DNA of 64,000 bases, taken from positions 1-64,000 of the forward strand of contig CAJXSK010000001.1 in NCBI GenBank assembly GCA_913061075.1, in the 5' to 3' direction. The DNA comes from an uncultured Piscirickettsiaceae bacterium (lineage in GTDB: Bacteria; Pseudomonadota; Gammaproteobacteria; Methylococcales; Cycloclasticaceae). The notes under the pieces are model-generated. The model saw only the letters and a program-made list of their open reading frames with translations, searched no databases and was not told where the DNA came from. Of this stretch, positions 46 to 2,012 are shown piece after piece (position 1 is the first letter of the stretch; each line of letters opens with the position of its first letter). Both the position numbers and the translations under genes were made by a program.

Positions 46-46
46 A

Positions 47-814
47 TTCATGCAAGGTGGATTTTTTATCGGTTAGCCAGCGCTCTGCCAAAATTTCACG
101 ACTACGTTCATCTAACGTTTGTAGTGCGGTATGTAGTTTAGTGGTGCTATCTGTTTTTTCGTTATGCGCTTCAACGACGACAGCAGGGTCAGTCTCTTGT
201 TGGGACAAGAAAGATGCAGGCGTATGGGTTAGTTCTTCTGAGTCGGCTGAATCATCTTGGTGGCCATCGAAAGCCATATCATGACTGCTAAGGCGTTTTT
301 CCATTTCGTACACAGCAGACTTATCTACACCTAGGTCATTAGCAACAGCTTCGGCTTCTGTTTCATTGAGCCATGAGAGGTTCTTTTTGTTTTTTCTGAG
401 ATTAAAAAATAGCTTGCGTTGAGCTTTGGTAGTGGCGACTTTAACAATGCGCCAGTTTTTAATCACGTATTCGTGTATTTCGGACTTTATCCAATGCACG
501 GCATAAGAAACTAGGCGTACGCCAACTTCAGGATCGAAACGTTTAACCGCTTTCATTAAGCCAACGCTGCCTTCTTGAATTAAATCGGGCAGAGCAAGTC
601 CGTAACCCATGTAGCTACGGGCAATGTGTACAACATAACGCATATGAGATAACACTAAGGTACGCGCAGCTTCTAGGTCATTTTCATCACGCAAGCGATA
701 CGCTAACGCTTTTTCTTGTTCAGCGCTAAGAGCGGGCATTGTTGATAAGGATGATATATAGGCATCCAAAGAGCCGGCTGTTAATGTATTTGGTAGTATC
801 ATTGTTTGTGTCAT
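47..814 (-). CDS. rpoH: RNA polymerase heat-shock sigma factor RpoH (sigma-32), C-terminus missing
   Basis: This is the N-terminal 256 residues of sigma-32, which directs RNA polymerase to heat-shock promoters. The start is MTQTMILPN. Region 2 is clear (SHMRYVVHIARSYMGYGL, DLIQEGSVGLMKAVKRFDP), followed by the sigma-32 stretch with LVSYAVHWIKSEIHEYVI and region 4 starting LDERSREILAERWLTDKKSTLHE. The frame then runs into the adapter, so roughly the last 28 residues, including the helix-turn-helix, are absent; the family is about 284 residues. The loss is an assembly edge, not a mutation. The ATG at 814 has a good ribosome binding site (AAGGAGAG). The gene follows ftsX, as in other gammaproteobacteria, but about 240 bases lie between them and carry a promoter and a CIRCE-like operator. 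Confidence 0.95.
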
Positions 815-818
815 ATAA

Positions 819-849
819 CTCTCCTTTGAGAGCTTTTTACGAAAGCTCT
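819..849 (-). promoter_or_regulatory. Two mutually exclusive hairpins over the rpoH ribosome binding site
   Basis: Read on the minus strand, a perfect 8-bp stem AGAGCTTT/AAAGCTCT with a 5-base loop (829-849) shares four bases (CTCT) with a second 5-bp stem, CTCTC-AAAG-GAGAG (819-832), that folds over the Shine-Dalgarno AAGGAG. If the first stem forms, the ribosome binding site is open; if the second forms, it is partly closed. This could be a temperature-sensitive or other RNA switch for sigma-32 translation. The pairing is visible; the function is inferred. Confidence 0.45.
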
Positions 850-889
850 TTTGCTGTCATACGGCGTTAAAAAAGTGCTCAATCGGTCA

Positions 890-903
890 TTTACTCCAGT
901 AAA
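890..903. repeat. Small inverted repeat in the rpoH leader
   Basis: TTTACT-CC-AGTAAA forms a 6-bp inverted repeat in the long untranslated leader of rpoH. It has no T-run and is not a terminator. No function can be assigned. Confidence 0.3.
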
Positions 904-985
904 CTCCCTCTTTCCGCGCTTTTTTGCCTTGTCTGAAAACAAAATCTTCTTCCGTACAAAACTCTCTTAGTGATTAAGTTGCTAT

Positions 986-1012
986 TTAGCAGTCACCCTA
1001 TAAGAGTGCTAA
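986..1012 (-). promoter_or_regulatory. CIRCE-like HrcA operator in front of rpoH
   Basis: The plus strand reads TTAGCAGTC, nine bases, then GAGTGCTAA. The CIRCE consensus is TTAGCACTC-N9-GAGTGCTAA, so one arm is perfect, the other has one mismatch and the 9-base spacer is exact. It lies immediately downstream of, and abuts, an extended -10 box on the minus strand, where it would cover the transcription start. CIRCE is the binding site of HrcA, the repressor of groE and dnaK operons. No hrcA gene is visible in this window. Confidence 0.8.
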
Positions 1013-1020
1013 TTATAGCA
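1012..1020 (-). promoter_or_regulatory. rpoH promoter, extended -10
   Basis: On the minus strand the bases read TGCTATAAT, a consensus -10 box (TATAAT, 1012-1017) preceded by the TGn extension. The -35 is poor, near TTACCT about 18 bases upstream, as often seen with extended -10 promoters. Transcription would start inside the CIRCE-like element, giving a leader of about 190 bases before rpoH. Confidence 0.6.
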
Positions 1021-1052: not shown

Positions 1053-2012
1053 TTACTGCTCTAAATCATTCAAATGGCGTGTGACAACGATCCAGGAGCC
1101 AACAATACCTAGTGTGACAGACAGTGCCAGCCAAAACATGATGCTGCCGAATGACATGTAGCTAATGCTAAAAGAGCTGCTGTATAAGCTCGAGAGAGCG
1201 TTTGTTGGGCCATCGAGTAGCCAAAGGGATAACGTGACTAATAAACAGGCGCCTATGCCGCCTAATAAGCCATACCAAAAGCCACTGTAAATAAACGGGC
1301 GTTTAATAAAGGCATGGGTTGCGCCAACTAGGCGTGTGATATCTATTTCGGCACGGCGGTTTTGTAATTCAAGGCGGATGGTGTTGCTAATAATCAGTAA
1401 CACGGCAATACCTAACAAAATAGTGATTAGCGTGACGCCACGTTGTGCAATATGGAGGAGGGCATTGAGTCGTTCTAGCCATGACATGTCCATTTGTACC
1501 AATTTGATTTCTGGGTGCTGCTTAAGCTCGATAACCAATGATTTAAGTGCTGCAGGGTTATTAAAGCTGATGACAGGTGATACTTGGATAACATGGGGTA
1601 AGGGGTTCTCGCCCAAGGAACTCAATGCAGAGCCAAAGCCACTATATTGGCGGAACTCTTCCAACGCAGTTTGTTTATCAATAAGGATTGTTTGCGCTAC
1701 TTTGTTGTTGCTTTCAATGTTTTTTGCTAGTGCTTTTGCTTTATCTAAATTAACAGTGTGGTTAAGGAAAATAGAAAGGTTGTGTGTTAAATCTATTTGA
1801 CCACTGACGGCTTTAAGGTTTTCGATAGACACTAACATGCCAGCCGGTAAAGACAAGGTGATGGCAATAACACCCACCGTCATCATAAAATTAAAAGGAG
1901 CGCGCGCTAACCGGCCCAAGCTTGAGAAAAAGCTATGTAAGTGAATATGGACGTATAGTTTAAGGTTAAACGGTTGCCCTGGACGTTGGATATTTTGACG
2001 ACGACTAGCCAT
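1053..2012 (-). CDS. ftsX: Cell division protein FtsX, permease-like subunit of FtsEX
   Basis: 319 residues. FtsX is the membrane subunit of FtsEX, which links ATP hydrolysis at the septum to activation of peptidoglycan hydrolases during division. A first membrane segment lies near residues 42-65, then a periplasmic loop with the conserved VSP stretch, then three membrane segments near 195-215, 245-270 and 290-312, the four-helix FtsX layout. The ATG overlaps the end of ftsE by 8 bases, so the two are translationally coupled in an ftsY-ftsE-ftsX operon on the minus strand. Confidence 0.96.
   Translation of the reverse strand: MASRRQNIQRPGQPFNLKLYVHIHLHSFFSSLGRLARAPFNFMMTVGVIAITLSLPAGMLVSIENLKAVSGQIDLTHNLSIFLNHTVNLDKAKALAKNIESNNKVAQTILIDKQTALEEFRQYSGFGSALSSLGENPLPHVIQVSPVISFNNPAALKSLVIELKQHPEIKLVQMDMSWLERLNALLHIAQRGVTLITILLGIAVLLIISNTIRLELQNRRAEIDITRLVGATHAFIKRPFIYSGFWYGLLGGIGACLLVTLSLWLLDGPTNALSSLYSSSFSISYMSFGSIMFWLALSVTLGIVGSWIVVTRHLNDLEQ

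Follow-up and report, generated by a model that had tools for sequence, protein, structure and literature searches.

On the sequence evidence set out here, the repressor HrcA probably controls a heat-shock sigma factor gene: we put at roughly three in four the probability that HrcA represses rpoH, coding for sigma-32, through a CIRCE operator at positions 986-1012 of the window (the whole stretch of DNA that was analysed, 64 kb in length), and that it does so at a promoter that includes a sigma-E element. The genome carries the site together with hrcA and rpoE, the site is conserved upstream of rpoH across the class, and it is lost together with hrcA. In the textbook view, sigma-32 and HrcA/CIRCE are parallel heat-shock systems. 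An earlier note on this DNA had proposed that HrcA controls rpoH, and this proposal is well supported by the presence of hrcA, by conservation and by co-loss, with binding itself predicted from sequence; three points call for correction, namely the promoter type, the impression that the arrangement is exceptional and the CIRCE site expected at dnaK/grpE.

The operator at 986-1012 (no strand assigned) reads TTAGCAGTC-N9-GAGTGCTAA where the consensus is TTAGCACTC-N9-GAGTGCTAA, that is, one mismatch in 18 positions and a spacer of exactly 9 bp, as had been described before. The mismatch, a G-to-C change, is located in the right arm (in the direction of rpoH), and the same change is seen again in other rpoH operators of genomes with hrcA. 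The site is the only CIRCE match with up to three mismatches in the 64-kb window, and dinucleotide shuffles of the window gave such a match in 0 of 100 cases; on these shuffles and the conservation described below, a chance match was rejected. Its assignment as a CIRCE operator is based on the 9-N9-9 repeat, on hrcA in the genome and on the conservation of orthologous sites and their loss with hrcA.

The start codon of rpoH is an ATG at 814 on the minus strand, downstream of the operator, and is preceded by a likely ribosome-binding site, AAGGAGAG at 819-826 on the same strand, assigned from the sequence. The gene spans 46-814 (minus strand; TIGR02392, 338.8 bits against a cut-off of 323.1) and has lost its 3' end at the contig end. 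Positions 12-45 of the window carry GTCTCGTGGGCTCGGAGATGTGTATAAGAGACAG, which we take to be the Illumina Nextera adapter; since the contig begins with uncut adapter, the rpoH frame beyond about residue 255 is an artefact, and the contig holds an incomplete rpoH. Its upstream neighbour is ftsX (1053-2012, minus strand; TIGR00439), in the gene order ftsY-ftsE-ftsX-rpoH, and E. coli likewise has ftsE-ftsX-rpoH. The nearest named neighbours of this RpoH are from Cycloclasticus MAGs, at 75-84% identity, which places the source in or near Cycloclasticus.

The hrcA gene on which the earlier proposal depended is present elsewhere in the genome as one intact copy inside an hrcA-grpE-dnaK operon (PF01628, E 1.5e-66, a frame without stops). 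Scanning the whole genome for CIRCE with up to three mismatches returned two sites, one at rpoH and the other at groESL, where a perfect CIRCE lies 113 bp upstream of groES. Operators had been expected at both groES and dnaK/grpE, but only the former was found: the surroundings of hrcA-grpE-dnaK, scanned to five mismatches, showed no CIRCE. Because only groESL and rpoH carry the operator and hrcA-grpE-dnaK does not, the HrcA regulon of this genome is predicted to consist of groESL and rpoH.

For the class, 281 genomes (GTDB Gammaproteobacteria) were searched for hrcA and rpoH, and about 450 bp upstream of 130 rpoH genes, a non-random subset from the genomes that ranked highest for RpoH score, were scored for CIRCE with a cut-off of three mismatches. 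The operator was present upstream of rpoH in 104 of 113 genomes with hrcA versus 3 of 17 without it (Fisher p 2e-10, uncorrected for relatedness), and when one genome per family was counted these figures became 52/55 and 2/6. Shuffles reached the cut-off in 0 of 2000 cases, and of 40 rpoH genes from the phylum's other classes, one had a CIRCE within the cut-off. Given these counts, the wiring of rpoH to CIRCE is typical of hrcA-bearing Gammaproteobacteria in the GTDB sense and, within the phylum, is largely confined to them; far from being an oddity, the arrangement is the rule in the sampled hrcA-bearing members of the class. Nine of the 113 class genomes with hrcA have no CIRCE at rpoH. In family f128, all three sampled members (G230, G318 and G385) have hrcA and none has CIRCE at rpoH; this lineage has kept hrcA, but its rpoH seems to have slipped out of HrcA control.

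Within the genus, the operator is kept with 0-2 mismatches in all ten hrcA-bearing genomes with rpoH, a tally in which G017, with an hrcA broken across two contig ends, was counted as hrcA-bearing. None of the six genomes without hrcA keeps it; the same position now shows 4, 4, 6, 6, 7 and 8 mismatches, and the -10 region is kept at the position of the decayed operator. The palindrome is therefore conserved in relatives, as the earlier note had held that it should be, and it co-varies with hrcA. At groES, the operators divide in the same way, with 0-1 mismatches in genomes with hrcA versus 3-9 in those without. On a tree of RpoH and FtsX, hrcA changed state at least four times and the operator followed each change, but only two of the independent pairs on this tree are well supported, which leaves a formal test with low power.

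A similar pattern is seen beyond the genus. Of 80 named rpoH loci, nearly all from Methylococcales, most have a CIRCE of 0-2 mismatches located 24-55 bp ahead of the start codon, Methylobacter and Methylomicrobium isolates among them. In the 50 genomes of this set that were searched for hrcA, the gene was found in 35 and was not detectable in 15. A CIRCE with no more than two mismatches precedes rpoH in 34 of the 35; among the 15, the site is missing from nine, has 3-4 mismatches in two and 2 mismatches in another two, and is perfect in the last two, which means that 4/15 retain the operator. The two genomes with perfect sites are assemblies of 1.0 and 2.3 Mb that are probably incomplete. One genome, G002, has two different rpoH loci, L142 (G002:C161) and L155 (G002:C200), each with its own CIRCE; this probably reflects a mixed bin (73% complete, 5% contamination) and not a true duplication.

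From Cycloclasticus alone, the conserved promoter at the operator could be taken for a sigma-70 promoter, a reading that was discarded when the class consensus showed GGAACTT at fixed spacing. In the window, a predicted sigma-E -35 element, GGAACTT at 1028-1022, and a predicted sigma-E -10 element, TCTTA at 1005-1001, both on the minus strand, are separated by 16 bp, which fits a sigma-E promoter; the TC of the latter is the end of the left CIRCE arm (in the direction of rpoH). GGAACTT-N16-TCTnA matches the sigma-E motif in the literature (PMC4336711), for which a GGAACTT -35, a spacer of 16 or 17 bp and a TCnnA -10 were required here. Sigma-E is known to act on rpoH in Shewanella (PMC4336711) and Salmonella (PMC4577112), with sigma-E-dependent promoters of the form GAACTT-N16-TCTnA as here. 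When the class sites were aligned on CIRCE, their consensus was gGAACtt-N9-TTaGCACTCt.A. GAAC lies 15 bp before CIRCE, the same offset as in the window, in 71 of 107 class sites versus 1 of 107 shuffled flanks and 0 of 9 groES sites, it lies 16 bp before CIRCE in 11 further sites, and the third base of the spacer is A in 85/107. An rpoE gene is present in the source genome (G000:C1:299679-300239; TIGR02939, above cut-off). The GAAC motif is absent from most Methylococcaceae (found in 15/69), so the sigma-E part is not universal, and those without GAAC have probably replaced the sigma-E input.

The extended -10 box that the earlier note had placed next to the operator, a predicted sigma-70 element, is present here as TGCTATAAT at 1020-1012 (minus strand); its final T is the first base of CIRCE, and the stretch 986-1020 includes this -10 region. 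The box is present in the genus and rare elsewhere in the class (4 of 107 sites), where the conserved promoter is instead of the sigma-E kind. A sigma-70 promoter scan found no -35 match to go with it and no complete promoter. Neither the sigma-E promoter nor a 139-bp repeat between CIRCE and the ATG had appeared in that note. Further evidence on the promoter comes from five Cycloclasticus genomes without hrcA that could be aligned. In 5/5 of them the bases at arm positions 6 and 7 have changed, while the TC of the -10 (arm positions 8 and 9) and the TTA after it are kept in 5/5. The sequence is GGTCTTA in every case, which is similar to the GGTCTGA found in E. coli. In these alignments the two predicted functions of the arm are therefore separable: the HrcA-specific bases drift and the sigma-E bases stay. 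The sixth Cycloclasticus genome without hrcA, G009, has also lost the GAAC motif.

HrcA might instead repress rpoH via the sigma-70 extended -10 at 1020-1012 alone, with GGAACTT and TCTTA being incidental here. The near-perfect TGCTATAAT, kept across the genus and in most relatives without hrcA, fits this reading, as does the presence of CIRCE without GAAC in most Methylococcaceae. However, it leaves unexplained why GAAC recurs at the exact spacing in so many class operators, together with an A at spacer position 3, and is absent at groES sites, and why TC and TTA are kept in relatives without hrcA despite changes in adjacent arm bases; as no sigma-70 -35 was found in the scan either, we consider it unlikely. 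Another reading is that the palindrome works at the RNA level, as a hairpin in the leader of rpoH that affects translation or the stability of the mRNA, and has no role as an operator on the DNA; it draws on the palindromic form of CIRCE and on its transcription into the leader in other bacteria. The predicted starts (about 1005 and about 994) lie inside the site, leaving the left arm mostly untranscribed, and a hairpin does not predict strong co-loss with a DNA-binding HrcA; on both grounds this reading was rejected as barely credible.

The distance from CIRCE to the ATG is 171 bp in this genome versus 20-40 bp in the genus, and between them lies a 139-bp MITE-like repeat (828-966, minus strand) with imperfect terminal inverted repeats of about 18 bp. 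Further copies are found in the source genome (G000:C13:8572-8705 and G000:C17:15048-15160) and in relatives, with many in G011; the relatives' end reads GAGACCTTTGCACGGAAG. The insertion, together with the one mismatch in one arm, could suggest that the site is a relic here and that rpoH has been uncoupled from HrcA. This is highly improbable, since the insertion sits on the downstream side of the operator and promoter without disrupting either, the hrcA gene is intact, and decay is far stronger in relatives without hrcA (4-8 mismatches). Because of its position the insertion need not affect repression, but it may alter how the rpoH message is translated or how stable it is, and by lengthening the leader it could have changed rpoH expression in other ways. 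Folded as RNA, the rpoH leader forms a long hairpin (z -5.4); an Rfam scan of 700-1100 gave no match.

Repression of rpoH by HrcA at a promoter including sigma-E would, as we infer its parts from binding and steric block to start sites, GroEL signal and use of sigma-E, work as follows. In unstressed cells, active HrcA would bind 986-1012 and sterically block RNA polymerase at two overlapping start elements, the sigma-E promoter (1028-1022 and 1005-1001) and the sigma-70 extended -10 (1020-1012). HrcA is kept active by GroEL in other bacteria. When heat or misfolded protein occupies GroEL, HrcA would be released and rpoH and groESL derepressed together, and envelope stress would contribute sigma-E-driven transcription of rpoH. 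Sigma-32 would then activate the remaining heat-shock genes, probably including dnaK, which has no CIRCE here.

In Bacillus and many other bacteria, HrcA/CIRCE acts at groESL and hrcA-grpE-dnaK; the 9-N9-9 operator and the repressor family are the same as here and groESL is a shared target, but here the other target is the gene of the heat-shock sigma factor and the dnaK operon has no CIRCE. A report by Permina and Gelfand from 2003 (J Mol Microbiol Biotechnol 6:174) is said to deal with HrcA/CIRCE in beta- and gammaproteobacteria and may list rpoH in some species, and there is reportedly a 2007 study on G. sulfurreducens RpoH. CIRCE at rpoH has already been predicted in one deltaproteobacterium, Geobacter sulfurreducens, as a perfect site 51 bp upstream of the gene (Rodionov et al. 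2004, PMC545781, Table 8). That prediction concerns a single genome outside the class, with no overlap with sigma-E reported, whereas here conservation and co-loss were tested in Gammaproteobacteria. In the literature consulted, mostly at the level of titles, abstracts and search matches, we found neither this spread through the class described, nor an overlap of CIRCE with the sigma-E -10, nor operator decay after loss of hrcA.

E. coli rpoH is under the control of sigma-E, sigma-70 and an RNA thermosensor. Its P3 promoter has the same geometry as the one described here, GAACTT-N16-TCTGA 120 bp before rpoH, but there is no CIRCE over P3 (best match 7 mismatches) and no hrcA, whereas in relatives with hrcA the -10 is partly a CIRCE arm. 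The ancestral gammaproteobacterial rpoH promoter may have been composite, with the HrcA operator within the sigma-E -10, so that GroEL availability gates envelope-stress input; E. coli P3 would then be derived after loss of hrcA, and Cycloclasticus genomes without hrcA would have moved toward GGTCTnA. We regard this scenario as evenly poised between right and wrong. Should the survey be borne out, sigma-32 is under HrcA in most Gammaproteobacteria that have hrcA. Heat induction would then be layered, from GroEL through HrcA to sigma-32, with a derived remnant of this circuit in E. coli; this would account for species that hold both systems, and it predicts derepression of rpoH when hrcA is mutated. 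The lineages in which hrcA was lost, on repeated occasions, provide natural comparisons. At hrcA itself, a CIRCE-like site with 1-3 mismatches lies beside the gene in some Cycloclasticus relatives (L128 in G008, L133 in G015 and L131 in G005) and not in the source genome; autoregulation of hrcA may therefore vary within the genus.
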